NCBI GenBank assembly: GCA_023249635.1
Contig: JAHFCH010000034.1
Location: 1 to 40,058, forward strand
DNA length: 40,058 nt
Source: Fibrobacterota bacterium
GTDB lineage: Bacteria > Fibrobacterota > Fibrobacteria > UBA11236
Direction of reading: 5' to 3'
Shown: positions 21,988-38,076 of the stretch, in pieces
Numbering within the stretch: position 1 is the first letter of the stretch
Layout of the letters: each line of letters starts with the position of its first letter
The notes under the pieces: model-generated
Database searches by the model: none
What the model saw: only the letters and a program-made list of their open reading frames with translations
Told to the model about the DNA's origin: nothing
Translations under genes and position numbers: made by a program

Positions 21988-24414
21988 TCAGAAATCCCCT
22001 TCGCCGAATCCCAGCCCCAGGGATGAACCCATGCGCACGAAGTAGAAGGGCGCTTCTCCGCTCAAACCGCCCATCCCCATTCGCAGGGATCCCAGCGGCG
22101 TGGCATATCCGGCCTGGGCTTCCCAATAGGCATGGCCCGGCAACTTCGTGCCGAATATGTCATGTTCTTCCAACTGGGACTCGAAAAGCGTCGGACCGTA
22201 ATTACGCCAGGCCCCTGCCGCCAGCATCAGCCCTCCCCTGCCCCAGGTAGGGCAATATTCGGCGCGCGCGTTGCGGAACCCGGAGGAACGCAGGTCACGG
22301 AAGAAATATTCGTCCTGGAAGGAAAGCGCTTCGATGCGGCCCGCCCGGATTACGTCAAAGGCCGTCAAATCCTGGTTGGCCTGATCCGACCAAAAATATT
22401 GGTCCATAAGCCGAAAGTCGCCCAAGGCCAAGCGTAAGCGCGACTCTACGCCAGTGAAAGGATCCCTCGGCTGTCCTTGCAGGTTGATCTGGTACATGTA
22501 CCCTACGCGGCAGCGCCACGAGAGCATGTGACCGCCGCCGGGAATCGGCTTGCCCAAGCCCAGATAGGCGGTCTCCCGGAAATCCAGGGACTTGAGGGTA
22601 TCGTCCGGTTCACCGTTGCCGGGGAATACCACGCGATTGGCCTGCACGGACGATTTGCTCCAGGCATGGGTGGAGGGATACAGGTTCAGGAAAAACTGCC
22701 AGACGTCACGCTGGAAACGCATCGGCAACGGCGCCAGGGATTCCGTCTGCTTGGCTTGCGGATACGGGTAATGGATTTGCCAGAAGCTCCAGGCCAGTCC
22801 CAGATCCATCCGCACCGGAAAAATGGGAGCAATCATCAGGCGCCATTGGTAGCCGGGGCGATGCCCGCCCAGCAAAGCCCCCGCTTCGGCGTCGAAGGGG
22901 ATGTAGAAGGGCTCGCTCCAAGCCAACCCCCCATAGATTTCGGGGGGACGATCCACGATGTCTTCACCCCCGATGGCCGCGTTCCAGCCCGACTGGAAAC
23001 GCACCTTGGATTTCTCGCGCGCATCGAAGACCAGAAGGGCTTTTTCCTGTTCGCTCCCGCGGGCCCATTCCACGTCGAGGTCGCGGTAGAACCCGGAAGC
23101 CACCAGCGCCGCGATGGAAGCCTCGCCACCACTATCCGTGGCTTCGTCTTCCGAGATGCGGATGATGTCGAGGAGGAGTTGACGGCCGCCGGGAGCCAGC
23201 GGATTGACGGAAAGGCGATTGAGGCTCAACATCCCCTCGGCGCTATCGGCCGCCGCGCGCGCGCGCGGTTCGGCTGCCGCCAACGCGGATTTGAGCACGT
23301 CCATCGACCGCAAGGTGGATGTATATCCCAATTCGATCCACAAGGAGGGATCCTTTTCCTCGGGATCGAAGGCGGGTCCCGGGTCCAATTCAATGCGCAG
23401 GGCTTTCGCGGAAAGGCTGGCGGGTGCCGCTTCGGCGTTCTGGTTGGCCGCGTTCTGCTTGGAGCGCAAAGCCAGGGAATCGGTCCAGGGCAAGGGACCG
23501 GTTTCCAGGGCCGGGGGCCGTAACCGCCGCCCAGGTTGCACGATGATGATGCGATCGCATGCGAAGGGCAGCTTATCCGCCATGATGCCGTGGCCGGAGA
23601 GCAGGGAGCCGGAAGCGTAGGGCCAAAGGCTGGCGCGCCGGCGCACGGCTTCGGCCGGCAACAAGGAGCCCTTCAGGATGTTTTGAAGACTGCCCTCGGT
23701 ACGCACCGCGCCCTGGGACGATTCCAAATCGGACACCTGCACGGCCAGGCGGCGGGGCGCGGCTTCCAGCTCTTCCACCGGTCCGCCGGGGGCATCATGC
23801 GTCATCTGGGCTATGGCCCAGGAAAGATGCAGGAATTCGCCGGGATCGTCCGCTGCCACCTCGGTCCATTTCGGGGCACGCGATTGCAGGGCCTGCAGGC
23901 TGATGGGAACGTCCCATTGCAAGGGATCGCGGCCGTCGGGGATGAAGGTACGTTCTTCAAGGGGACGCTTGGCCGGAAAAGGGGACAACAAGGCTTCCAA
24001 GGGCCGGCGCGCCAGGAAGCGTTCCATGCCGGCCGCATCGTAGCCTACCGCCCATGCCGCGCCCACCCAAACCGCCTTGGATTCGGCCAACACGGCATCC
24101 GGAGCCAGCCCGTATTCTTCCAGGGCCTTGAATACCCCGATGTAGGCATACACGAGTTTGCTGTCCGCGCTCAGGTAAAGCACGTTACGGTAACGCGCAG
24201 GTTCCCCTGGGCGCGAAGCGGCGCCCTGGGGCGGAGCCGGAATCGCGGCCTGGGAATCCGGATTGGCGACGGGAACGGAAGGAGCCGCGAGAGCGGGAAC
24301 CCGATCCGGATCGGAGGTATCGAGAATCACGAACGACGGCGACGGCGCGGCGGCTAACAAGAATGCGGCGAACAATGCGTGTGGGTAGGCGCGGCGCGGC
24401 GGATGCATGGGCAT
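21988..24414 (-). CDS. PlpD-like patatin/POTRA/beta-barrel outer-membrane protein with degenerate patatin site
   Basis: 808 residues with a signal peptide (YPHALFAAFLLAAAPSPSF). Residues about 75-320 follow the patatin layout (VLYLSADSKLVYAYIGVFKA, LEEYGLAPDAVLAES, GAAWAVGYDAAGMERFL, GHGIMADKLPF). The oxyanion GGGxRG reads SADSKL, the nucleophile motif G-x-S-x-G reads ESKAV, and the D-G-G of the dyad reads G-H-G, so lipase activity should be lost. A POTRA-like unit follows (about 395-480: LSLNRLSVNP, IAALVASGFYRDLDVEW, FDAREKSKVRFQSGWN). A C-terminal Omp85-like barrel of strands such as WRLMIAPIFPVRMDLGLAW ends FVRMGSSLGLGFGEGDF. The order is that of type Vd PlpD proteins. Divergent from cutA (65-base gap). 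Confidence 0.78.
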   Translation of the reverse strand: MPMHPPRRAYPHALFAAFLLAAAPSPSFVILDTSDPDRVPALAAPSVPVANPDSQAAIPAPPQGAASRPGEPARYRNVLYLSADSKLVYAYIGVFKALEEYGLAPDAVLAESKAVWVGAAWAVGYDAAGMERFLARRPLEALLSPFPAKRPLEERTFIPDGRDPLQWDVPISLQALQSRAPKWTEVAADDPGEFLHLSWAIAQMTHDAPGGPVEELEAAPRRLAVQVSDLESSQGAVRTEGSLQNILKGSLLPAEAVRRRASLWPYASGSLLSGHGIMADKLPFACDRIIIVQPGRRLRPPALETGPLPWTDSLALRSKQNAANQNAEAAPASLSAKALRIELDPGPAFDPEEKDPSLWIELGYTSTLRSMDVLKSALAAAEPRARAAADSAEGMLSLNRLSVNPLAPGGRQLLLDIIRISEDEATDSGGEASIAALVASGFYRDLDVEWARGSEQEKALLVFDAREKSKVRFQSGWNAAIGGEDIVDRPPEIYGGLAWSEPFYIPFDAEAGALLGGHRPGYQWRLMIAPIFPVRMDLGLAWSFWQIHYPYPQAKQTESLAPLPMRFQRDVWQFFLNLYPSTHAWSKSSVQANRVVFPGNGEPDDTLKSLDFRETAYLGLGKPIPGGGHMLSWRCRVGYMYQINLQGQPRDPFTGVESRLRLALGDFRLMDQYFWSDQANQDLTAFDVIRAGRIEALSFQDEYFFRDLRSSGFRNARAEYCPTWGRGGLMLAAGAWRNYGPTLFESQLEEHDIFGTKLPGHAYWEAQAGYATPLGSLRMGMGGLSGEAPFYFVRMGSSLGLGFGEGDF

Positions 24415-24479
24415 GGCGATGTTCCAATATCATACCAATTTGCGGCGAGGCCAAGCTGTTTTTAGTACCTTCGGGGACC

Positions 24480-24803
24480 ATGTCCGCCATACTTGCGTAC
24501 ATCACGGTCCCCAATCGCGAAGACGGCTTGCGCATCGGCAAAGCCTTGTTGGAAACCCGGCTGGCGGCGTGCATCAACCTGCTGGATGGGATGCATGCGG
24601 TGTATTGGTGGCAAGGCGCCCTGGAGGAGACCCAGGAATGCGTTTTGCTTGTGAAGAGCAGCGCCGCCCGGCAGGACGCCATCACGGCCAAGGTACGGGA
24701 ACTCCACGGTTACGCTGTCCCATGCGTCGTTTTCTGGCCCTTGACCGGCGGCAATCCCGACTATCTCGCGTGGATCGAGAAGGAATCCGGCGAAAATGCC
24801 TAG
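24480..24803 (+). CDS. cutA: CutA family protein
   Basis: 107 residues, the normal CutA length, starting MSAILAYITVPNREDG. Conserved segments: GLRIGKALLETRLAACINLL, VYWWQGALEETQECVLLVKS, VRELHGYAVPCVVFWPLTGG, NPDYLAWIEKE. CutA forms very stable trimers with a PII-like fold; a role in divalent metal tolerance has been proposed but is not settled. A frame opening at 24363 runs upstream but looks non-coding. The stop overlaps the start of the next gene by 8 bases, so the two are co-translated. Confidence 0.92.
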   Translation: MSAILAYITVPNREDGLRIGKALLETRLAACINLLDGMHAVYWWQGALEETQECVLLVKSSAARQDAITAKVRELHGYAVPCVVFWPLTGGNPDYLAWIEKESGENA

Positions 24804-25350
24804 GCTTTTCATTGCCCTGGAGCTGCCCGAAAACGCCCGGGATAGCTTGGCGGAAATAGCGGGCGATTTGCCCGGCGCCGATTGGGCCTATTCCGAACAA
24901 TACCATCTTACCCTGCGCTTCTTGGGCGAAGTCGACCCGGCCTCATTCGATGCCGTACGCGAAGGCTTGGGTAGCCTTACCGCGAAATCCTTCTACCTGG
25001 ACTTACGCGGCTTGGGAGTGTTCCCGTTGCGGGGCGATCCGGAAACGCTCTGGGCCGGCGTAGAGCGCAACGGGGCCCTCATCAGCCTCCGCAACCAGGT
25101 GGAAAGCGTGGTAACCCGCAAGGGACTGCCGGTGGAAACCCGGAAGTTCCATCCCCATGTGACCCTGGGCGGCGTACGCGGCTGCCGTCCCGAATGGGTG
25201 GGCGCCTTCGTGGCGATGCATTCGCTCTTTTCCGTCGCTGAAATCCCCGTGCAAACCTTCACGCTATTCTCCAGCAAACGCGGTCCCGGGGGGGCGGAAT
25301 ATACCGTGGAGGAGAGGTACGTGTTGGAAGGGATATTGGAGGGGGAGTGA
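24796..25350 (+). CDS. thpR: RNA 2',3'-cyclic phosphodiesterase ThpR (LigT family)
   Basis: 184 residues with the two H-x-T/S-x motifs of the 2H phosphoesterase family: YHLTLRFLGEV (HLTL, His near residue 36) and FHPHVTLGGVR (HVTL, near residue 118). It opens with the typical RLFIALELPENARDSL and contains WAYSEQYHLT and LRGLGVFP. It hydrolyses RNA 2',3'-cyclic phosphates; the exact cellular substrate is uncertain. The ATG lies inside the end of cutA (8-base overlap). A heptad hairpin repeat 6 bases after the stop may end the transcript. Confidence 0.92.
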   Translation: MPRLFIALELPENARDSLAEIAGDLPGADWAYSEQYHLTLRFLGEVDPASFDAVREGLGSLTAKSFYLDLRGLGVFPLRGDPETLWAGVERNGALISLRNQVESVVTRKGLPVETRKFHPHVTLGGVRGCRPEWVGAFVAMHSLFSVAEIPVQTFTLFSSKRGPGGAEYTVEERYVLEGILEGE

Positions 25351-25356
25351 GGGATA

Positions 25357-25422
25357 GGTTTAAGGTTTAAGGTCTAAGGCGTCCCGTATTTCCTTAAACC
25401 TTAGACCTTAGACCTTAAACCT
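25357..25422. repeat. Inverted-repeat element of TTTAAGG-type heptads, copy 1
   Basis: Left arm 25357-25379: GG then heptads TTTAAGG, TTTAAGG, TCTAAGG. Right arm 25392-25422, read on the minus strand: TTTAAGG, TCTAAGG, TCTAAGG, TTTAAGG. The arms form a stem of about 21 bp with one mismatch around a short spacer. It fills the gap between the ends of the convergent thpR and ABC permease genes. A second, different-length copy lies at 38109-38176. Confidence 0.85.
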
Positions 25423-25448
25423 TCTTCTAGCGGCCGAAAGCCACCGGC

Positions 25449-26252
25449 TCAAATGAAATCCCGCTTCGAGAACCATAGGCTGGCGATCAAAAGATAGATG
25501 CAGATGAATACCAGTCCGTATAGGCTGGTATAGAGAACGTAATGCTCGGGGATGGGGAGATTATAAACCACGCGCCCCCGGATATTGAAGTTCTCCAGGT
25601 TGGGGATGGCATAGTAGACGAAGTGGATCAGTTTTTCGGTGAAGGGCGTGATGACGGGGGTGCCGGGCAGGCGCTGTCCGTATTTGCGGATGAATTCCAG
25701 GTGATTGAGCAGATCACCCGAGAGATGCCCGGCCACGTATATCCCCAGGGTGAACAAGGCGCTGAGGGTGGGCGTGGAAAAGGCCGAGAACAGCAGGGCC
25801 GCGGCGGTGATGACCGCCATTTCCATGAAGATGAGATAGATGGCGGTGACCAGGGACGGCGTGGGGCGCTCCCCGATATAGCGGAGCAGCAGAAAGAAGA
25901 CCAGGGTCATCACGGCCAGGTTCATGGCCAGTACCATCAATAGGCCCAGGTATTTCCCCACGATGAAGTGCCAGCGCGGCAACGGCTTCGCCAACAAGGT
26001 CAAGATGGTCTTCCGCTGGATTTCCTTCTGGACCAGACCGATGCCGATGAAGATGGACATCAGCAGGCCGGAGATGGACATCACGGCCATGGTAAAATCC
26101 TTGATGACGTTCACGCGGGCGAACACGGACCAATCCCCCAGCATCAACGAGAAGAGAATCAGGCCCAGGGCGAACAGCACCAGGTTGTAGAGGATCTTGT
26201 CGCGGACGGTTTCCCGGAACGCGTTTACCGCGATGATCATGATCGGTTTCAT
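25449..26252 (-). CDS. ABC-2 type transporter permease
   Basis: 267 residues from the ATG at 26252 (MKPIMIIAVNAFRETVRDK), chosen because it overlaps the ATPase stop by 4 bases (ATGA); an upstream extension to 26345 lies within the ATPase gene. Six hydrophobic spans are visible (ILYNLVLFALGLILFSLML; AVMSISGLLMSIFIGIGL; LGLLMVLAMNLAVMTLVFF; LVTAIYLIFMEMAVITAAAL; FSTPTLSALFTLGIYVAGHL; LYGLVFICIYLLIASLWF). The QKEIQRKTILTLLAKPLPR segment after the second span is typical of NosY/ABC-2 permeases and probably contacts the ATPase. It ends the minus-strand gene block. Substrate unknown; export is the usual direction for the family. Confidence 0.88.
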   Translation of the reverse strand: MKPIMIIAVNAFRETVRDKILYNLVLFALGLILFSLMLGDWSVFARVNVIKDFTMAVMSISGLLMSIFIGIGLVQKEIQRKTILTLLAKPLPRWHFIVGKYLGLLMVLAMNLAVMTLVFFLLLRYIGERPTPSLVTAIYLIFMEMAVITAAALLFSAFSTPTLSALFTLGIYVAGHLSGDLLNHLEFIRKYGQRLPGTPVITPFTEKLIHFVYYAIPNLENFNIRGRVVYNLPIPEHYVLYTSLYGLVFICIYLLIASLWFSKRDFI

Positions 26253-27157
26253 GCGTGTTTCGCCACCTCGCGGGCCAGCACGTCTTCCAGGGAATGGCGG
26301 TTGCGGCTTACCGATTCCACCCCCAGGCCTTGGGCCAACGCCCATTGCAGCAGGTGCTTCTGCGCGCCGAGATCGGGACAGGATACCGTGCGCGCATCGA
26401 TGGCGGTGCCTGCGCCCTCGGGCGGTCCGTTTTTGGAAAACTCTTTATCGAAAGCCACCACGTATTGCTCCGCTTCATCGGCCAGCACTTCGGCAACCGT
26501 ACCTTGCCGCGGAATGGTCCCGTCCACCACCATGGCGAGCCGGGTGCAAATGGCTTCCACATCGCTGAGCACGTGGCTGGAATAGAATACGGTAATGCCT
26601 TGCGCATGCAGGTTCTTGAGCAGGGTGCGCACGTCGCGACGGCCCATGGGATCGAGTCCCGACATGGGTTCGTCCAGGATCACCAGCTTGGGGCGCGAAA
26701 GCAGGGATTGCGCCAGCCCGATGCGCTGCAACATCCCTTTGCTGTAGGTGCGTAGATTCCTATCCATGGCCTCGCGCTTCATGCCCGTAAGCTCGGCGAC
26801 CTCATCCACCCGGGTCCGCAAATCCTTCCAGCCTAGGCCGGAAAGCTGGCCATAGAACCACAGGAATTCGCGACCGGTAAGGTAGTCGTAGAAATAGGGT
26901 TGTTCGGGTAGGAACCCCACGCCGAGCCGGCTGGCGGGCGCGCCCGCGGGTTTACCCATCAGGGTGGCCTTGCCCCCATCCCCCTTCAGCAACCCTAGGA
27001 GGATTTTGATGGTGGTGGATTTTCCGGCTCCGTTGGGACCGATGAAGCCGAAGAGATCGCCTTCGCGGACTTCGAAGCTTACGCTCCGGAGGGCTTCCAC
27101 CTTCTTCATCCAAAAGCCGATGCGGTAGGTTTTGCTGAGATCCTCTACCCGGATCAT
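26249..27157 (-). CDS. ABC transporter ATP-binding protein
   Basis: 302 residues. Walker A GPNGAGKST, Q-loop region FLPEQPYFYDYLTG, signature YSKGMLQRIGLAQSLL, Walker B LVILDEPMSGLDP and H-loop SSHVLSDVEA are all intact, so it should hydrolyse ATP. The type is the CcmA/NatA group that pairs with ABC-2 permeases. The C-terminal 80 residues (QYVVAFDKEFSKNG onward) form the accessory domain usual in this group, ending LEDVLAREVAKHA. It starts 7 bases after the small membrane protein gene and overlaps the permease start by 4 bases. Confidence 0.93.
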   Translation of the reverse strand: MIRVEDLSKTYRIGFWMKKVEALRSVSFEVREGDLFGFIGPNGAGKSTTIKILLGLLKGDGGKATLMGKPAGAPASRLGVGFLPEQPYFYDYLTGREFLWFYGQLSGLGWKDLRTRVDEVAELTGMKREAMDRNLRTYSKGMLQRIGLAQSLLSRPKLVILDEPMSGLDPMGRRDVRTLLKNLHAQGITVFYSSHVLSDVEAICTRLAMVVDGTIPRQGTVAEVLADEAEQYVVAFDKEFSKNGPPEGAGTAIDARTVSCPDLGAQKHLLQWALAQGLGVESVSRNRHSLEDVLAREVAKHA

Positions 27158-27164
27158 GTTGCCC

Positions 27165-27476
27165 TCAGCTTTGCTTGCGCTTGGAAAACCTTTGGTAATA
27201 CACGATAGCGCGGCCGGCGCCGTAAAGGCAGATGCTCGCCATGAGCAACCAGCGGCCGAGGAAATTGGGATTGATGGAGAAATCCTTGTGCGCGAAGAAA
27301 TCGCGGTGCCCGGTGCGATCCATGATCAGGCACAGGGCCGCGAATAACAGCGCCATCACCCCGGTGGCGATCAGGTACCAGCTTAAGGTGTCCAGGGCGG
27401 TCTTTTCGCCCAGATCGCGGTACTGCGAGGGATCGAAGCGCGGGGTTTCCGCAGGATTGGTTTCGGGTTCCGGCAT
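27165..27476 (-). CDS. Small two-helix membrane protein, unknown function
   Basis: 103 residues with a Pro/acidic N-terminus (PEPETNPAETPRFDPSQY), a first span (WYLIATGVMALLFAALCLIM), a polar loop (DRTGHRDFFAHKDFSINPN) and a second span (LGRWLLMASICLYGAGRAIVYY) ending in a basic tail (QRFSKRKQS). The basic tail suggests both termini face the cytoplasm. It matches no family I know. It lies 7 bases before the ABC ATPase gene and is the first gene after an internal promoter with palindrome (27512-27559), so it may be an accessory subunit of the transporter. Confidence 0.75.
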   Translation of the reverse strand: MPEPETNPAETPRFDPSQYRDLGEKTALDTLSWYLIATGVMALLFAALCLIMDRTGHRDFFAHKDFSINPNFLGRWLLMASICLYGAGRAIVYYQRFSKRKQS

Positions 27477-27511
27477 GCAGGGAAATATAAACCTTCCCCG
27501 CTTTCCTGACC

Positions 27512-27531
27512 ATGCGCCGCATATGGCGCAT
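27512..27531. promoter_or_regulatory. Palindrome at the transcription start, possible operator
   Basis: ATGCGCC (27512-27518) is inverted as GGCGCAT (27525-27531), a perfect 7-bp inverted repeat with a 6-base centre. It overlaps the last two bases of the predicted -10 box and the expected start point. It could bind a repressor or form a hairpin in the leader. Confidence 0.45.
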
Positions 27532-27559
27532 TATAGGATGGCGATTGCTACCGGTTCAA
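27530..27559 (-). promoter_or_regulatory. Predicted sigma70-type promoter for the ABC transporter genes
   Basis: On the minus strand TTGAAC (27559-27554) and a perfect TATAAT (27535-27530) are 18 bases apart. The start point would fall near 27522, about 46 bases before the small membrane protein's ATG at 27476. It lies just within and after the end of the lipoprotein gene, so the last three genes of the block may be transcribed separately. Confidence 0.5.
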
Positions 27560-28213
27560 GTCCTGCGCCAGGACGGTGCGGCCGCCGAATTGCTCGAGCA
27601 CGTATACGGCCTGCTCCAGATGCGTGGACTTGCGCTGGCGCGCCAGCGATTCGGCCCCCTGCAGGATGAGGGGAAGCGACTGCGCCAGGTGGAATTTCCA
27701 CTCCCCGCCTTCCCGGACGAACTGGAACACCGGGACATTGGGCGCGTCGCGCAATCCGATTTGACCGGTGTTCCCGCGGACTATGGACTCCCCCAGCTCG
27801 GTCTTGATCAGGGTTTTGCGCACCGGCCAGCTTTGCACCACGAGTTTGTCCAGCAGGGAGACCGGCCGGTCGTCAAAAGCGGGATTGAGGCGGCGCTCCA
27901 CCCGTAAGGCCAGGATGGCGAGGATCTCGTAGAACGGCCTTTCCTTGAGATAAGCCGGGGGCTCGGTACGCGAGGCGCGGCGGATATCATCCACCCAGTT
28001 GAGGGATTCCCGGGAAAGGTAGCGCGGCAGGGAGTCGGCTTGGCCCTCCTGGACCTTCTGTCGGAAGCGGAGGAAGAAGGCGTCGAGGTCTTTACGGGCG
28101 GCGGGATCCTCGGGAGGCAGCGGGGCGGAACTTCCGCAGGCGGCAAGCAAAAGTCCGGCAAGTACAAGTACGGCAATCAATCGTGCGGTAAAAAAGAGTG
28201 CGGCTCTCCTCAC
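27548..28213 (-). CDS. Lipoprotein, NTF2-like C-terminal part, unknown function
   Basis: 221 residues from a GTG at 28213 that overlaps the stop of the upstream gene by 4 bases (GTGA). This start gives VRRAALFFTARL followed by a hydrophobic core and the lipobox LLAAC, a clean lipoprotein signal; a frame opening at 28261 is less likely. The mature part is helical first (ARKDLDAFFLRFRQKVQEGQ) and ends in a segment like NTF2-fold proteins (VPVFQFVREGGEWKFHLAQS). No catalytic motif is seen. Translational coupling to the C39-like protein suggests the two act together at the periplasmic face of a membrane. Confidence 0.8.
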   Translation of the reverse strand: MRRAALFFTARLIAVLVLAGLLLAACGSSAPLPPEDPAARKDLDAFFLRFRQKVQEGQADSLPRYLSRESLNWVDDIRRASRTEPPAYLKERPFYEILAILALRVERRLNPAFDDRPVSLLDKLVVQSWPVRKTLIKTELGESIVRGNTGQIGLRDAPNVPVFQFVREGGEWKFHLAQSLPLILQGAESLARQRKSTHLEQAVYVLEQFGGRTVLAQDLNR

Positions 28214-30570
28214 GCGCCCGTTTCCAGGCGGTTCTTGTAGATGCGGATCTTCTTCTCCCAATTGCGTTGGTTGAACTCGTCGTCCGCGCGGAAGGTCTTC
28301 AGCTTGAAAGCCTCCACCAGTTCCGAGATGGCCTGGCGATCATAGGGATTCCATTTGGTCAGGTAGCCTTCCATGATGGCCAGCGCCTCATCGATATTGC
28401 GGAAGTCGACCACGGTATGCTTGCGCCAGGTCCAGAAGGCGAGATCGGCGGCCGATCCGGGGATTTTGTCCTCGGACTCCAGCAATTTAAGCGCGATGCG
28501 CCTGGCCGTTTCCGGATCATCCTGGACATAATCCTGCCCCAGCAGGAATTCCAGGGTCACGGGTTCCTGTTCGTCCAAATCGATATAGCCCAGCAGCACA
28601 TCGCCCGCCTTGGAATTGTCCCCCATCTGGTAATAGCATCCCGCCAACAAGGTCGCCATGCCCGATGAGAGCCGGTTTTCCTTGCGGTACCGCTCGATGA
28701 ACGAGATGGAGCGCGCATAATCGCCGCGCTGGTACAGGCTCTGCAGATACTCGAGGATCTGGCTTTCGAATACGTCGTGTCCCAGCATGAATCCGGAGAT
28801 GACGGAATCCTTGACCGCGGGCAACGGGCGCTTTCCGATCAGACTCTCGTATTCCCAATCGGCGAAGAAGAAGCCGTGGCCGGCGGAGCGCCCCAGATGC
28901 AGGGCACGGCGATCCACGTCATCCTCATTGATGCGCGCCAGCAGGAATTGCAGGTAGGCCTCGTTCTGGGGATCGATGTCCTTGCCCAGCAGCTCGCGCA
29001 GCAGCGGCAGCTTTTCCTTGGGGACGACGATGCCCATGGTATTGTACATGTGGCTCCAATCCTGCCCGAACTCGGTCCAACGCTCGTCATCCCAGATATC
29101 ATAGGTGTTCACGTCGTAGGTGATGAGCGTCTCCAGCACCTGGTCGTAGCCGAATACCGCGATCACGTGTCCGGGGATAAAGGCCAGCACCGGGATGCCG
29201 TGGTCGATCAGCTTGAAGATGTCCTGCAATGAGCGCAGGGGCAGCACCAGATTCGCGAAGCCGCGCGACTCGGAAAAGAACGCCTCGTCCGTGATCAGGC
29301 TGCCGCGATCGAGTTGCGTGATCTCGGCTCCGATACGCTTGGCGCCGCTGTGATCGCCCCAATAGTTCAGGATAAGGCCCAGGGAATTGGGTACGCAATA
29401 GGCGGCCTTGTACTCCGTGCGCATCTCGATGCCCGGAATCACCACCCGCTTCAGGGCCAGGCTCGTGTCGGTCTTCTTTTCCAGCTTATCGCGGAACTCG
29501 TGGGCCTCAAGCAACAGGCGGGAATCGTGGTAATACTTCACCAGCACCCGGATGAAAGCCTCCTTCGCCTCCTCCAGGTTGCCGCTCTTACGGTGGAGCA
29601 AAGCCACGCGGAATTGCAGGTAGGATTTCAGATTGTCCGAGCGGCTCCAGGCCAGTGCCCGCGAATACCAGGGAATGGCCGCATGGGGCGTTCCCGACTT
29701 TTCGTAATGCTGCCCCATGAGGAGGGCGTAGTTGATGGGCAATCCGGTGACGGTGGCCAGACCGGCCATGGCCAAGGCGATGGCCAACAGCCCGGTGGCG
29801 TAAGCCCCGATGAACCGCTTGCCCGCGCGCCACAAGCGCAGGCAATGGTGCACCAAAATGGGTACGCTGGCGAACCAGAGAATGAAGAACAGGATTTGCC
29901 GTGTGCGATCGAGCCAGGCCGGGAAAATGGCGAGCTCTTCCACTTGCCACAGAGGGATGGTAACCAGGATAAGGTGGAGTTGGTTGACGACCACATGGGC
30001 GCCCGTGACCAAGGCCACCAGCCCGAGCAGGCCGGAGAGTGACCAAGACTCCCCTTCCTTGGAGGATTGCAGCGCGGAGAAGAAAAGCAGCAGGCCGAAA
30101 TTGAGCCAGACCACGCCGAGTTCCGACGAGATTGAGTCGACGGAAGCGTTGACGGGATAGAATCCGCTCCAGAGCAAATCGGAAAGCCATTGCTCCATGC
30201 TGGCGAGCAGTACCGCCATCGGCAAGGCCGCCAGTGTCAATCCCAAGGCCGTGCGGAAACGCCGGTTGGGGGCTACGACCGCGGGAGGGCCGCGTTCCAA
30301 GGGCATCACCGCCATGGCGGCCAGGCTCCAGGCCAGGTTCCAGCCGGCCAGCAGCAGCGCCACGAAGAGCCAGTTGAAGGGCAGGATGGCCACTGCCGGA
30401 AAAGGCGCCAAGGCCGCGAGGATCATCAGTACCCGGAAAAGCCGCGAGGGCGCACGTCCCAGGTACGGGAGGAAGGGCCAGGGCCCTCCCAGCACCATCA
30501 GGAAGTACGCGAAACCGGGCAGGCCCTTGAGGGCGGGAAGCGCGGCGGTTTGCGGGCTGGGCTTGATCAT
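28210..30570 (-). CDS. Polytopic membrane protein with TPR and C39-like papain-fold peptidase domain
   Basis: 786 residues from the ATG at 30570, two bases after the stop of the upstream gene; an in-frame ATG at 30594 lies inside that gene. About residues 20-285 hold seven or eight hydrophobic spans. TPR-like helices follow (about 290-370: HAAIPWYSRALAWSRSD, GNLEEAKEAFIRVLVKYY). Residues about 385-510 look like a C39-type cysteine peptidase: AAYCVPNSLGLILNYWG (Cys392), PGHVIAVFGYD (His468) and ITYDVNTYD (Asp486), in the order and spacing of a papain-like triad. More TPR-like helices end the protein (QRGDYARSISFIERYRKE, GCYYQMGDNSKAGDVLLGYI). C39 peptidases cut leader peptides, usually at double glycine; peptidase activity here is inferred. 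It overlaps the lipoprotein gene. Confidence 0.75.
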   Translation of the reverse strand: MIKPSPQTAALPALKGLPGFAYFLMVLGGPWPFLPYLGRAPSRLFRVLMILAALAPFPAVAILPFNWLFVALLLAGWNLAWSLAAMAVMPLERGPPAVVAPNRRFRTALGLTLAALPMAVLLASMEQWLSDLLWSGFYPVNASVDSISSELGVVWLNFGLLLFFSALQSSKEGESWSLSGLLGLVALVTGAHVVVNQLHLILVTIPLWQVEELAIFPAWLDRTRQILFFILWFASVPILVHHCLRLWRAGKRFIGAYATGLLAIALAMAGLATVTGLPINYALLMGQHYEKSGTPHAAIPWYSRALAWSRSDNLKSYLQFRVALLHRKSGNLEEAKEAFIRVLVKYYHDSRLLLEAHEFRDKLEKKTDTSLALKRVVIPGIEMRTEYKAAYCVPNSLGLILNYWGDHSGAKRIGAEITQLDRGSLITDEAFFSESRGFANLVLPLRSLQDIFKLIDHGIPVLAFIPGHVIAVFGYDQVLETLITYDVNTYDIWDDERWTEFGQDWSHMYNTMGIVVPKEKLPLLRELLGKDIDPQNEAYLQFLLARINEDDVDRRALHLGRSAGHGFFFADWEYESLIGKRPLPAVKDSVISGFMLGHDVFESQILEYLQSLYQRGDYARSISFIERYRKENRLSSGMATLLAGCYYQMGDNSKAGDVLLGYIDLDEQEPVTLEFLLGQDYVQDDPETARRIALKLLESEDKIPGSAADLAFWTWRKHTVVDFRNIDEALAIMEGYLTKWNPYDRQAISELVEAFKLKTFRADDEFNQRNWEKKIRIYKNRLETGA

Positions 30571-30572
30571 GC

Positions 30573-33155
30573 TCAAGTGCTCCGCTTCTGCCAATGCTGG
30601 TGGACCTGCATATTGCGCGTATCACCCCGCCGTTTATACAGGTCGGCCAACAGGGCATGGGTTTCGGCGATGGACTTGTCCAGTTTCAGGCTGCGCGACA
30701 GCGTCGCGTAGGCGCTGCGCCAGCGCCCCTTGCGCATGGATACCGCGCCGCGAAGCGTCAGGAATTTCGCGTCTTCATCGTAGCCTTTGCATCGGGCGAT
30801 CAAGGCCGGGATATCGTCGACCTTGCCGAGCTTGAGCTTGATCCAGGCCAAGCGGTAATAGGCAGATTCGCTCCCGAAGGGATAGAGCCCGGTCAACTCG
30901 GCGTACAAGGATTCGCTGGCGGCCAGGTCCCCGCGCCGCGCGAGCAGACCCGCCAGGGAATCCAGGTAGGTCGCCTCGAAAGGATCCATGCGGTGCAGTT
31001 CCCGGAACAAGGTGAGCGCGGTATCCATGGTCAGCCGCGACTCCGCCGAAGAGTCCGGAGTAGGCGCGACATACCAATTCATCATCAGGTAGGTACCCAG
31101 CTTTCCCGCCATGATCCTCGCCACGATGGCTTTTTCCGCGGCCTTGTCCGGACCCATCTTGTCCATCCAGGCGGGGGGATAATCGTAGAACAGGTTTTGG
31201 TAATCCCGCGTGTCCGAGGCGAATTCCCAATACCTCCGCTTCAAGTACACCTTGCGCGAATCCACCTGGTCGCAAGGGAACAGGGTTCCCGCTTTACGGT
31301 ACGCTGCCGACGCTTCGGGATAATTCTCATGCTCCTGGTAATACACATCGCCCTGCTCCACCAGGAAGGCGGCCTCGCGTTCCTTCGCCGAAGCGAATGC
31401 GCTATCCCCCAGCACCATGCCTACGCCGCCGATATCCAACAGGTGTTCCATCAATTCGGCCCGCGGTACGAACTTCTGCAGGCTGTATTTGAATTCCCGG
31501 GTGCGGGCCTTCTCCGCTTCACCGCCGAAGGTCTCGCCCGCCTTGTGGTAGAACAGATCGGTATCCTCGTTACGCAGCCAATCCTGGCCTGCCGGGGCGC
31601 CGTAGGAGTAGTAATAGAATCCGTCCCGCGCCGGATCGTACCCGGAAATGGGCACCCAATGGCCGTACAGGCTGAGGAAAGGGACCTTGCCTTGCGCCAG
31701 GGCGGCGCGCAGCCGCTCCGCGTCGAGGAAACAGGTGGTGACGGGGATTTCCAATTGGCGCAGCGCGGGAATCAATTCGGGAACATTTTCCAGCCTGGGC
31801 AAATGCAACTGCACCGTGTTGGATAGGTCGAGCAGCTTCTTCTTGAGATCGAGATCGGACCAGCCGGGCTTAAGGTAGGCTACCGCGGAGAGCAAGGCGT
31901 ACCAATCCTGATCCAGGTACGATGCGGTTTTTATGACGGGCAGTTCCAATTGAGCGGTCTTACCCGGATCCGGCTTGGCCAACGCCGCCAATTCCCCTTC
32001 GGCCCGGCGGCGCAGCTTGGCGTAATAGGGTTTCCCATCGCATTTCCGCAGCATGCGGCGTAACAGCGCCTCGGCCCCCGCACGGTTCCCGGATTGGTAT
32101 TCCAATTCGGCCCATTCATCCAGCAAGTAGGGCGCACCGTGGGCCGACGGGGTGCGGGCCGATTCGGCCCGGGCCGCCATGCGGTAGGTAGCGTAGCGGT
32201 GACCCTCGAGGGCGCGCTCGCGCAACCCCGAGAGGTAGAAATTCCCGTCCCCCATCACGAACAGCATGTTGGCGTACAGGATAAGGGAAGGCAGGCCCAG
32301 GAACACGGTACGCTTGGTAAAGACGTTGGTACGCGGGGCGCTAATCAGGTAGCCCACCCCGAGCACGAATGATCCCCCGTAATACAACGCTTTCACTATG
32401 CCGCGGAACTGTTGTTCGATGCGGTAGGGGAAAAGGATGGCTTCCCGGGAAGACCCCTGGAATTGCGAGGCCAGAAACACGTCCAGGCGCTCCCAGACCA
32501 TTATCCAGCCCAGTACCACGGCGACACCGGCGTAGAAATACACCAGCGTACGCAAACCCGGCTTGAGACCGGAACGCCAAGCCATGGCGCCGGCCAAGCC
32601 CGCCACCGGGATCGCGTAGATCATCCACAGCAGGCCTTGGGTATAGACATCGCTGGGCAGATGGATGGAAAAGTTTTCCAGCTCCCCGATATTGTGGAGG
32701 AGCGACATGATATAGACCAGGGGGAAAATCGCCAGGGCCGCCGCAAGCATGGATTGCGGCAGGGACTGGAAACGGAGGAACTCCGCCCTTTCCGATTCGG
32801 AGGCATCGGTGCCTTCCGGGATCTGTACGGCCTGCCCCAGGGTGAAAAACCGTGAACGGGATGGTCTCAGGATTGCCCAGACCGTTACCGCGCAAGCAGC
32901 GAGATGTATCCCCAGGAGAAGTGCCCAATGCAGCGGGGCGAAGAAGAGGAAGGTGGAATAGCCCAGAAAACCCAAACCTAGCGCAGCTTGCCTGGATAAC
33001 CCGCTCTGTAGCAGGTTACGGCGGCGCAGTTTGGCGGTGAGGATAAACCATAGGGCGAAGGGTCCCAGCAAAAGGGTTGTCAGCGCGAACCAAATGGCCC
33101 TTAACCCGTGTTGGGAATCCGGTTTACGGAGCAATGGGAACCCTTCCGGGAGCAA
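30573..33155 (-). CDS. Polytopic membrane protein with TPR and cysteine-less C39-like domain
   Basis: 860 residues starting at TTG 33155 with GGGAGG six bases upstream. Eight hydrophobic spans occupy residues 20-300; positive loops (KLRRRN, RPSRSR, RSGLKPGLR, PRTNVFTKR) put the long C-terminal part outside the cytoplasm. TPR-like helices follow (EYQSGNRAGAEALLRRMLRK). Around 408-530 lies a domain laid out like the neighbour's C39 domain: LDQDWYALLSAVAYLKPGW where the neighbour has YCVPNSLGL, then LSLYGHWVPISGYD with His499 conserved. The catalytic Cys is absent (Trp/Tyr there), so this copy should be inactive. C-terminal TPRs (FRELHRMDPFEATYLDSLAG, RGDLAASESLYAELTGLYPF) resemble those of the neighbour. 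Same architecture, weak identity: a diverged paralogue. Confidence 0.72.
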   Translation of the reverse strand: MLPEGFPLLRKPDSQHGLRAIWFALTTLLLGPFALWFILTAKLRRRNLLQSGLSRQAALGLGFLGYSTFLFFAPLHWALLLGIHLAACAVTVWAILRPSRSRFFTLGQAVQIPEGTDASESERAEFLRFQSLPQSMLAAALAIFPLVYIMSLLHNIGELENFSIHLPSDVYTQGLLWMIYAIPVAGLAGAMAWRSGLKPGLRTLVYFYAGVAVVLGWIMVWERLDVFLASQFQGSSREAILFPYRIEQQFRGIVKALYYGGSFVLGVGYLISAPRTNVFTKRTVFLGLPSLILYANMLFVMGDGNFYLSGLRERALEGHRYATYRMAARAESARTPSAHGAPYLLDEWAELEYQSGNRAGAEALLRRMLRKCDGKPYYAKLRRRAEGELAALAKPDPGKTAQLELPVIKTASYLDQDWYALLSAVAYLKPGWSDLDLKKKLLDLSNTVQLHLPRLENVPELIPALRQLEIPVTTCFLDAERLRAALAQGKVPFLSLYGHWVPISGYDPARDGFYYYSYGAPAGQDWLRNEDTDLFYHKAGETFGGEAEKARTREFKYSLQKFVPRAELMEHLLDIGGVGMVLGDSAFASAKEREAAFLVEQGDVYYQEHENYPEASAAYRKAGTLFPCDQVDSRKVYLKRRYWEFASDTRDYQNLFYDYPPAWMDKMGPDKAAEKAIVARIMAGKLGTYLMMNWYVAPTPDSSAESRLTMDTALTLFRELHRMDPFEATYLDSLAGLLARRGDLAASESLYAELTGLYPFGSESAYYRLAWIKLKLGKVDDIPALIARCKGYDEDAKFLTLRGAVSMRKGRWRSAYATLSRSLKLDKSIAETHALLADLYKRRGDTRNMQVHQHWQKRST

Positions 33156-33643: not shown

Positions 33644-35749
33644 ATGAAACCATCCCTGGCCGTGCTTGTCGCCAAGAGGCTTGCGGATTTGGCCGTGGGC
33701 TGGCTGGGAACCTTGTTCTTCGTCGGCACCTACCCGATAGTGGCCCTGCTGATCAAGCTGGAATCCCGCGGTCCGGTCCTGTATTCCCAACAGCGCATCG
33801 GAATCAATCGCCGCTCCAGCCCCTATCAAATCTTCAAACCCAAGGTTACCGAGGCCGTCGCCGCAGGCGGCACCGGGGCTTTCATCCTCTCCAATCGCCA
33901 AGTGGACTATGGCGGAGAGGTATTCACCATTCTCAAGTACCGCTCCATGCGCATCGACGCGGAAAGCCTGGGCCCGCAATTGGCCAAGAAGGGGCTCGAC
34001 CCCCGCGTGACCAAGATCGGCAAATGGCTGCGGGCCCTGCACATCGACGAATTGCCCCAGTTCGTGAATATCCTCCGCGGCGACATGAGCCTCATCGGCC
34101 CGCGTCCGGAACGTCCCTACTTCACCATGCAATACGCCAAGCAGATTCCGCATTACCTGGATCGCACTCTGTGGATCAAACCCGGGCTCACCGGCTTGGC
34201 CCAGATCATCCTCGGGTACGACGATTCGCTGGAGAGCGTGGTCCGTAAGGTCCACTTCGATTACTCCTACCGCTCCGCGACATGCAATTTCTGGACCTGG
34301 TTGAAGATGGAAATGTGGGTAGGCATCAATACGGTCCTCTACCTGTTCATCAAGCCCCAATTCGAAGGCGGCGAGAACCGCGATCTCCAAGGCCTGAAAC
34401 GCGCCAAGGTCGTGGACTTCCGGGCCATGACGCCGGACAAGGGCGGGAAGCGCGACCTGACCGAAATCAAGAACCAGGTCCAGCAGCATCAAACCCGCAA
34501 GTCGGTCATCCTGGTCGGGAGCAGTCCCTACGAATTGAGCCGCACCCTCAAGGACCTGGAATTCAACCACAAGAAGACCCTGGATGTGCAAGTAAGCCCG
34601 GACGAGAATTTCGATCTCGAGGACCTGGGCTACCTCATCAACCTGGTGCATCGCGTGAAGCAGAGCGGCGGCCGTGTGGCCATCAAGAATTCCAGCCCCC
34701 GCGTGCAAAAGATGTTGAAGGAAATCCGGATGGACAAGGTGGTGGATTTGCACCGCCCCCAGGACACGGTCAAGAATTTCATGACCGTGGACGTGGAATG
34801 CTGGTTCCACGCCTACAACCTCAAGGAGCAAGTGCCTCCGTCCACCTGGCATTTGCAACCCACCCGCGTGGTCGCGAACGTGCGCAAGATCCTTGATCTG
34901 TTCCGCACCCACGACACCAAAGCCACCTTCTTCGTACTGGGCTGGGTTGCCGACCATTTCCCGGACATCGTTAAAATGATCGATGCCGAAGGCCACGAGG
35001 TCGGGACGCACGGTTATTACCATAACCTGCTGACCAACATGACCCCGTCGCAATTCGAAGAAGATCTCGAGAAATCGCTGATCGCGATCGGTAAGCAGAC
35101 CAAGCAGACCATCATCGGGCACCGCGCTTCGAATTTCACCATCGTGGAATCGACCTTATGGGCGCTGGAAATCCTGGCCAAGTACGGCATCGAATACGAT
35201 TCCAGCATCTTCCCCATCAAGCGGGAACGCTACGGCATCGCGCGCTATCCCAATCGCCTGCCGCACCAATTGCAATTCGCCGGCGGCACGCCCCTGACGG
35301 AAATCCCCATGTCCACCCTGGGCCTCGGCAACAACCTGATTCCCATCTCAGGCGGCGGCTATCTGCGGCTCTACCCTTACAAGATCACCGACCGGTATAT
35401 CGAGCAGAAGAATCAGCGCGGTCTCCCCGCCATGGTCTACTTCCACCCCTGGGAATTGGATACGGAACAAAAACGCCTCAACGTAGGCGCCGTAAAAGGC
35501 TTCCAACATTACGTGAATCTGGACAGCACGGAATGGAAGCTCAGCCGCCTGATGGAGCGTTTCTTTTTCACTTCGGTGAGGGAGAACCTGCAATCGCGCA
35601 GGGTCCAGTCCCTGCTCCGCAAGAATCCGGTGCGCATCGAACGCGTGGCCGGAGTCGCCCAAGGCGAAGAAGGCGCTTTCCGCCTCGCCAGCACCGGTGG
35701 ATCGGACGCTTTGGAAATCGAGACGACCGCGGACAAGACCGCGGTCTGA
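33644..35749 (+). CDS. Fusion of polyprenyl-phosphate sugar transferase, STAS-like domain and polysaccharide deacetylase
   Basis: 701 residues. Residues 1-240: bacterial sugar transferase (WcaJ/EpsL type), with one membrane segment (VGWLGTLFFVGTYPIVALLI), FTILKYRSM, IDELPQ and SLIGPRP; an extra 30-residue loop sits at 60-90. It should move a sugar-1-phosphate from a nucleotide sugar to undecaprenyl phosphate. Residues about 283-372: STAS-like fold (LDVQVSPDENFDLEDLGYLI, SGGRVAIKNSSPRVQKML). Residues about 378-640: deacetylase of the XrtA-associated group (FMTVDVECWF with Asp383, ATFFVLGWVADHFP, GTHGYYH with His456/His460, GHRASNF, MVYFHPWELD). It would start and trim an exopolysaccharide. Preceded by a 488-base gap with possible leader structure. 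No other polysaccharide genes follow. Confidence 0.88.
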   Translation: MKPSLAVLVAKRLADLAVGWLGTLFFVGTYPIVALLIKLESRGPVLYSQQRIGINRRSSPYQIFKPKVTEAVAAGGTGAFILSNRQVDYGGEVFTILKYRSMRIDAESLGPQLAKKGLDPRVTKIGKWLRALHIDELPQFVNILRGDMSLIGPRPERPYFTMQYAKQIPHYLDRTLWIKPGLTGLAQIILGYDDSLESVVRKVHFDYSYRSATCNFWTWLKMEMWVGINTVLYLFIKPQFEGGENRDLQGLKRAKVVDFRAMTPDKGGKRDLTEIKNQVQQHQTRKSVILVGSSPYELSRTLKDLEFNHKKTLDVQVSPDENFDLEDLGYLINLVHRVKQSGGRVAIKNSSPRVQKMLKEIRMDKVVDLHRPQDTVKNFMTVDVECWFHAYNLKEQVPPSTWHLQPTRVVANVRKILDLFRTHDTKATFFVLGWVADHFPDIVKMIDAEGHEVGTHGYYHNLLTNMTPSQFEEDLEKSLIAIGKQTKQTIIGHRASNFTIVESTLWALEILAKYGIEYDSSIFPIKRERYGIARYPNRLPHQLQFAGGTPLTEIPMSTLGLGNNLIPISGGGYLRLYPYKITDRYIEQKNQRGLPAMVYFHPWELDTEQKRLNVGAVKGFQHYVNLDSTEWKLSRLMERFFFTSVRENLQSRRVQSLLRKNPVRIERVAGVAQGEEGAFRLASTGGSDALEIETTADKTAV

Positions 35750-36207: not shown

Positions 36208-38076
36208 TTAGGCCGGAGCCGGTGTTCCCTGATTGATGTGGAAGATGAGGCCGGATATATCCGCCGGGGTAACCCCGGAGATACGTTGGGCGAGGCCGAC
36301 GGTGAGCGGCCGTTTAAGCGCCAGCTTCTGGCGGGCTTCGGTGGACATGGCATGGGCCGCGGCGTAGTCGAAGGCCGAAGGAATCCGCAAACCTTCCAAC
36401 CGGTTATTGCGCTCGATCTCTTTCAACTGGCGATCCCAGAATCCGCGATAACGCTCTTGCGATTCCACGATCCCCATTTCGCGATCCGAGAGACCCAGGT
36501 CCAGTTGCAGGCTGGCGGCCAGGCCCGGCAGGCCTACGTCCGGTCGCCGCAGTAGGCTTAATGCCGTGGTAGCTTCATCCAACGGGGCGGTACCGCAGGC
36601 CACCAGGTAGGCATCCACGGCGGGACTGAAGGCGCGGGCTTGCGCCAGGGTTCCGCGGGCGGCCGAGAGTTTTCCGCTCCAGGCCTGGAACTTCGCGAAC
36701 GTCGCAGCGTCGACCAGCCCGAGGGTATGGCCTTTTTCCAAGAGCCTGGCTTCGGCATTGTCCTGGCGGAGATGCAGCCGGTATTCCGCCCTGGAGGTGA
36801 ACATCCGGTAGGGCTCTTCCAGTTCCAGCGAAACCAGATCATCCGTGAGCACGCCGATATAGGATTCGCTGCGGCCGAGCAGGAAGGGCGGCTTTCCCTG
36901 CAAGGCCAATGCCGCATTGATACCCGCCATCAGGCCCTGGGCGGCGGCTTCCTCGTAACCCGAGGTGCCGTTCACCTGGCCCGCGAAATAAAGGCCGGGG
37001 ATATCCTTGACCGCGTAGGTGGGATCGAGTTGGGTGGATTCGACCGAATCGTATTCCACTGCGTACCCGTATCGGAGTACCCGGCACTCCTTGAGGCCGG
37101 GAATGGTACGCAAAGCGCGGTCCTGGATTTCGGCGGGCAAGCTTGAGGAGAAGCCGTTGACGTAGATGCGGCCGTTGCCGATGCCTTCGGGCTCCAAGAA
37201 CAAATGATGGGAATCCTTATCCGCGAAGCGGCAAATCTTATCCTCAATCGAAGGGCAGTAGCGTGGCCCGATGCCCTTGATGACGCCGGTGAACATGGGG
37301 CTCTCGGCGAAACCGGTGCGCAGGATATCATGGGTCTCGGTATGGGTATGCGTGATCCAGCATACCGCGTGATTCTTGACCTTGCCTTCGGTGCGGAAGG
37401 AGAAGGGGAACGGATCGGCATCGCCATGCTGCACTTCGACGGCGGTATAGTCGATGGAATCGGCAGCCAGGCGCGCGGGTGTGCCGGTTTTTAGGCGGCG
37501 GGTGCGCACGCCCAAGCCCAGGATGGATTCGGAGAGGCGATCGGCCGCGGCCTCCCCTACCCTTCCGCCCTTGGTTTGCGAGAGGCCGGTATGCATCACC
37601 GCACCCAGAAAGGTTCCCGAGGTGATGATAAGCGCGCGGGCGTGGATATGGCCGGCGGGACCGAAGTCGAGATCGAAGACCCCGTCGGCGCCGCGGCGGA
37701 AATCGGCGAGTTCCCCGGCGAGCAGGGAAAGGTTGGGAGTGACGCGGAGCAGGGTTTGCATGGTGTCCGCGTACAGTTCCATATCCATCTGCGCGCGCGG
37801 TCCCCACACCGCCGGGCCCTTGGACAGATTGAGCATGCGGAACTGGATGCCGGCCTTGTCGGCGGCGACGCCCATCAGGCCGCCCAAGGCATCGATATCG
37901 CGTACCAGTTGGCCTTTGGCGACACCGCCGATGGCGGGGTTGCAAGACATGCGCCCGATGGCGGCGACGTCCATGGACACCATGGCCGTGCGGGCCCCCA
38001 GGCGCGCGGCCGCATGGGCCGACTCGATGCCGGCATGACCGCCGCCGATGACGACGACGTCGAATGAAGGTGTCAT
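36208..38076 (-). CDS. mnmG: tRNA uridine-5-carboxymethylaminomethyl modification enzyme MnmG (GidA)
   Basis: 622 residues, close to the usual 620-630. The FAD-binding motif VVVIGGGHAGIESAHAAARLG opens the protein, followed by the GidA signature GRMSCNPAIGGVAKGQLVRDIDALGG and GPAVWGPRAQMD, then KTGTPARL, RYCPSIEDKI, LFLEPEG, YVNGFSSSLP, GQVNGTSGYEEAAAQG and FTSRAEYRL. The C-terminal helical MnmE-binding domain ends QRISGVTPADISGLIFHI. With MnmE it modifies U34 of certain tRNAs. mnmE is not in the window. A heptad hairpin repeat separates its start from the prpD end. Confidence 0.97.
   Translation of the reverse strand: MTPSFDVVVIGGGHAGIESAHAAARLGARTAMVSMDVAAIGRMSCNPAIGGVAKGQLVRDIDALGGLMGVAADKAGIQFRMLNLSKGPAVWGPRAQMDMELYADTMQTLLRVTPNLSLLAGELADFRRGADGVFDLDFGPAGHIHARALIITSGTFLGAVMHTGLSQTKGGRVGEAAADRLSESILGLGVRTRRLKTGTPARLAADSIDYTAVEVQHGDADPFPFSFRTEGKVKNHAVCWITHTHTETHDILRTGFAESPMFTGVIKGIGPRYCPSIEDKICRFADKDSHHLFLEPEGIGNGRIYVNGFSSSLPAEIQDRALRTIPGLKECRVLRYGYAVEYDSVESTQLDPTYAVKDIPGLYFAGQVNGTSGYEEAAAQGLMAGINAALALQGKPPFLLGRSESYIGVLTDDLVSLELEEPYRMFTSRAEYRLHLRQDNAEARLLEKGHTLGLVDAATFAKFQAWSGKLSAARGTLAQARAFSPAVDAYLVACGTAPLDEATTALSLLRRPDVGLPGLAASLQLDLGLSDREMGIVESQERYRGFWDRQLKEIERNNRLEGLRIPSAFDYAAAHAMSTEARQKLALKRPLTVGLAQRISGVTPADISGLIFHINQGTPAPA

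Follow-up and report, generated by a model that had tools for sequence, protein, structure and literature searches.

The locus considered here raises a simple question: do six closely packed genes, two of them for large polytopic proteins with C39-like domains and the others for a lipoprotein, a small membrane protein and an ABC exporter, make up a single envelope system, or is the functional unit smaller? All six lie on the minus strand of the window, by which we mean the whole 40,058-nucleotide stretch that was analysed. From Pfam, profiles and alignment, gene A (30573..33155) is predicted to encode a polytopic TPR protein whose C39-like domain is degenerate and dead, and gene B (28210..30570, in an ORF of 28210-30594 with its likely start an ATG at 30570) a protein of eight transmembrane helices followed by a predicted periplasmic TPR, a C39 peptidase-like domain and a TPR array. 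Next come the lipoprotein gene C (27548..28213; ORF 27548-28261, likely start a GTG at 28213), with an LLAAC lipobox whose Cys is kept in all five aligned members, and gene D (27165..27476), for a small membrane protein of two helices, which travels with E and F and stands outside the A-B core. Gene E (26249..27157) encodes an ABC transporter ATPase and gene F (25449..26252; ORF 25449-26345, likely start an ATG at 26252) an ABC-2 family permease.

Three of the junctions were read directly from the sequence: a 2-base gap from the stop of A to the start of B, a 4-base overlap GTGA that places the start of C on the stop of B, and an overlap ATGA that places the start of F on the stop of E. The C-D and D-E gaps are 71 and 7 bases, respectively. 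The Pfam scan matched TPRs in both A and B, ABC_tran in E and ABC2_membrane_2 in F; it gave no match for C and no reliable match for D. An earlier note on this DNA had described six co-directional genes that overlap or are tightly spaced, which the six minus-strand ORFs and their junctions bear out, and its naming of a lipoprotein, an ATPase and a permease agrees with the lipobox Cys and the two ABC matches. Promoter and terminator scans at the cluster gave no more matches than expected by chance.

Across genomes, it is A and B that stay together. All five genus relatives have B, as do two of the four sister-genus members and the one searched genome of a sister family. A phylum-wide profile search of 168 Fibrobacterota genomes placed A and B in one and the same set of 11, counting strong B matches and including one A that is cut by a contig end; the remaining weak B-profile matches in the phylum are short TPR matches. 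Two genomes from other Fibrobacterota families (G072, G075) also carry the pair. A scan of genome contigs from 84,980 species with two exact peptide motifs, which underestimates the spread (the profile search covered Fibrobacterota and Desulfobacterota), added Desulfatibacillum alkenivorans, in which A and B lie side by side, and the pair is found in 3 of 395 Desulfobacterota genomes, a sample drawn around that species and including it. In both phyla, A and B are adjacent in every case where a contig spans the two, and the conservation of the pair across two phyla rules out chance. The A-B loci yielded no constant third gene and no substrate. In the B tree, the window's order stands apart from a second clade of Desulfobacterota and other Fibrobacterota families (100/100, with long branches); a transfer of B between phyla is possible.

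Gene B probably encodes a C39-like cysteine peptidase. The window protein scores 22.8 bits against Peptidase_C39_2 (PF13529), just under the gathering cut-off of 24 bits, which three orthologues exceed (L026 with 28.3, L048 with 32.7 and L063 with 25.8 bits). The B proteins of L048 and of L047 come from two other Fibrobacterota families and group with Desulfobacterota, not with the window's order. Compared with a profile built from short C39 lipoproteins of Desulfobacterota, two of which were scanned against Pfam and are strong C39 members, the B core aligns with a probability of 99.6% (E = 3.5e-23). Cys392, His468 and Asp486 of B are invariant, and in C39 order, in 13 of 13 aligned sequences, and the C39 domain is the best conserved part of the protein, with a mean pairwise identity of 0.59 (membrane part 0.28, C-terminal TPRs 0.32). 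The oxyanion-hole Gln of C39 peptidases is not present in B; the 13 sequences have an invariant Tyr387 (Cys-5) instead, and the motif is CVPNS where C39 peptidases have CGPxS. Because the Gln before the Cys is missing, we file B as C39-like rather than as a classical C39 peptidase, although the LahT structure questions the role of this residue in C39 peptidases (PMC6363468). Against the PA2778 family (NF033920, cut-off 150 bits), B scores far below the threshold, at 12.4 bits for the window protein and 17.2 for L026, and the search of the B-core profile against PDB sequences returned no C39 structure, its sole hit being mug105 at an insignificant E of 0.47.

The profiles of A and B, built from 13 rows each, align over nearly the whole length of the proteins (99.4% probability, E = 3.5e-21), so that the two are paralogues of the same architecture: eight transmembrane helices, a TPR, a C39-like domain and a TPR array. 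An earlier comparison, with 8 rows each, had been weak at 20.7%. The catalytic residues separate the paralogues completely. Residue positions in A were taken from the profile alignments, the exact register being approximate, and on this basis the Cys position holds Tyr or Met and the His position Trp, Phe or another residue in 13 of 13 sequences. The C39-matching domain of A, at an identity of 0.33, stands only a little above the remainder of the protein (0.25-0.29). A is homologous to a C39 domain and has lost the catalytic Cys, and it has no ATPase domain and is not fused to an ABC transporter, unlike the CLD of type 1 secretion transporters. Gene A would then encode a catalytically dead counterpart of B, a putative pseudopeptidase. 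The earlier note had likewise called B a polytopic TPR/C39-like protein, and the profiles and the Pfam matches in orthologues now speak for such a domain, flanked by TPRs; it had described A as without the Cys and B as having Cys-His-Asp, which holds throughout the aligned sequences with the His of A lost as well; and paralogy together with these losses supports A as the degenerate counterpart of B.

Where these domains reside can be judged from the membrane part. Eight hydrophobic segments are found in B; the hydrophobicity profile of A is less clean, and its eight segments were placed by hand using the B pattern and predicted helices. In both proteins, positive charge lies mostly in loops 1, 3, 5 and 7, the even loops being neutral or acidic, which by the positive-inside rule places the C-terminal halves of A and B outside the inner membrane. 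The soluble halves are therefore most likely periplasmic, as had been suggested from the letters alone. AlphaFold of full-length B (9 sequences) gave a pLDDT of 69 and a pTM of 0.40 with a poor C39 region, whose strand/helix order fits a papain-like fold but whose confidence (block means of 32-50 over residues 341-430) is too low to establish such a core; for full-length A (8 sequences) the values were 76 and 0.70, and much of the degenerate C39 region is well predicted, except for an insertion near 510-540. Foldseek and VIA-align searches with the whole-protein models returned only TPR-type matches, since the repeats fill the list. With the C39 model of B poor and the fold searches swamped by TPRs, the C39 assignment rests on sequence profiles.

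We put at slightly better than even the reading in which A and B are paralogous inner-membrane proteins whose translation is coupled and whose soluble halves face the periplasm, B with a live C39-like peptidase domain and A with a dead one. The TPR arms and the dead C39 groove of A would take hold of an envelope protein that is unfolded or newly exported, which the C39 domain of B would then cut in the periplasm for maturation, release or quality control; in this scheme we infer the proteolysis, the contact between A and B, the substrate and the pathway. A more specific form of the proposal, to which we give somewhat less than an even chance, is that A-B is an undescribed, dedicated two-subunit periplasmic processing machine, in which the dead C39 sister would present substrates to the live one on a TPR-armed platform, with about eight transmembrane helices per subunit, common to Fibrobacterota and Desulfobacterota. 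The missing oxyanion Gln, the invariant Tyr387 and the CVPNS motif would also suit a B that is no peptidase but uses its papain-like Cys-His-Asp for acyl transfer or for an amidase or transglutaminase-like reaction on periplasmic substrates; we consider this unlikely, the nearest families by profile being C39 peptidases. Nor do we expect A and B to be mainly TPR scaffolds or envelope sensors with catalysis secondary: TPRs do lie on both sides of the C39 domain, and A does lack the catalytic Cys and His, but a scaffold would seem a rather improbable account of a protein such as B, whose best conserved part is the C39 domain and whose catalytic residues never vary.

The least probable reading, to which we give very little credence, is the one that the earlier note had put forward, that all six genes form one envelope maturation and export system in which B would mature peptides or proteins handled by the D-E-F exporter. 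The genes are tightly spaced, and their order is kept in the members of genus g1 with spanning contigs; in two g1 members a contig break splits the cluster, and both of its halves are there. Outside this genus, however, the arrangement falls apart. A-B, with or without C, occurs without an adjacent D-E-F in the sister genus, the sister family and Desulfobacterota, and permease F was not found in G007, G008 or G010, all three of which have A and B. Conversely, 36 of 41 genomes carry relatives of F, and 30 of the 36 lack A and B. At three of the four f3/f4 loci that were read, E-F is followed by a pair of PilT-family ATPase-like proteins and a patatin (assigned by a family scan at one locus and by gene order and starts at the others); at the fourth (L080), E-F has a different context. 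Beyond D-E-F in the window is a patatin-related gene (21988-24414). From the distribution of F and this PilT/patatin context, D-E-F is best taken as a module spread through the class, next to A-B-C in genus g1 alone. The exporter itself is of the DrrA/GldA ABC-2 type and not peptidase-containing, and peptide exporters have their C39 domains in the cytosol, whereas that of B is predicted to be periplasmic. The linkage of peptidase and exporter across genomes that would mark a C39/ABC peptide maturation-export system was not found, and D-E-F as part of an A-B system was rejected on distribution. Of the neighbourhood expected in related genomes, then, the adjacency of A and B stands wherever it is visible and that of the exporter only in genus g1.

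Lipoprotein C lies next to B in G010 as well as in genus g1, and was not found in G007 or G008. Members of its family occur in 115 of the 168 Fibrobacterota genomes; at the four other C loci that were read the neighbours are unrelated to A-B. Being class-wide and usually unlinked, C was rejected as an obligate partner. Neither the ABC exporter nor the lipoprotein is a core part of the A-B unit. A defence role for the cluster was also considered and set aside, PADLOC giving no match. As a separate observation, the exporter-PilT-patatin arrangement of Fibrobacter-type genomes (L079 6177-12778, also L078 and L081; window 21988-27476) may be a module for surface motility or secretion.

What is known of C39 domains comes mainly from peptide exporters, of which they form the cytosolic blade. 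FapD, a small Sec-exported protein of the fap operon, differs from B in having no polytopic membrane part and no TPR arms. Like B as proposed here, it is a C39 peptidase of the periplasm that is not fused to an ABC transporter; it works in the periplasm in the functional amyloid system of Pseudomonas (PMC5557850). The C39 domains of the peptide-exporting ABC transporters LahT, ComA and PCAT1 share with B a core with Cys-His-Asp, but they are cytosolic and exporter-fused, have the Gln before the Cys and cut double-glycine leaders. For A, the closest parallel is the dead C39-like domain (CLD) of HlyB, which recruits unfolded cargo and in which Tyr replaces the catalytic Cys (PMC8277102, PMC6363468). 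Both have a C39 fold without the catalytic Cys, replaced by Tyr in HlyB and by Tyr or Met in A; the HlyB domain, unlike A, is cytosolic, is fused to an ABC transporter, and has no TPRs and no live paralogue as partner.

By profile, the nearest family to B is the PA2778 family, which also has an exported C39-like domain associated with TPRs; it has a lipoprotein anchor where B has about eight transmembrane helices, and no dead paralogue was seen. In two Desulfobacterota loci (L064 7169-8208, L065 7081-8249), a PA2778-type C39 lipoprotein gene adjoins a TPR lipoprotein gene, and this pair is likely a soluble counterpart of B. The literature searched had nothing specific on TM-TPR-C39 proteins, PA2778 function or C39 in Fibrobacteres, and the remark in the earlier note that no named system with such a layout is known still applies to the libraries and literature searched. 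The A-B pair is a new way of using C39-like domains, unnamed in those sources. If the favoured reading is true, a membrane-anchored periplasmic C39 domain with a constant dead sister widens the role of this fold in cell envelopes, and A-B becomes a clear-cut example on which to study how enzymes pair with pseudoenzymes. Setting the pair apart from the adjacent ABC exporter also avoids a wrong annotation.

Two features upstream of A may be recorded. A divergent gene at 33644-35749 in the window, encoding a fusion of a bacterial sugar transferase with an XrtA-type polysaccharide deacetylase, separates A from mnmG in genus g1 and was not found in this position in G007, G008 and G010. mnmG itself (gidA; 36208-38076 in the window) lies upstream of A-B in all examined genera of the window's order, which is possibly only positional conservation.
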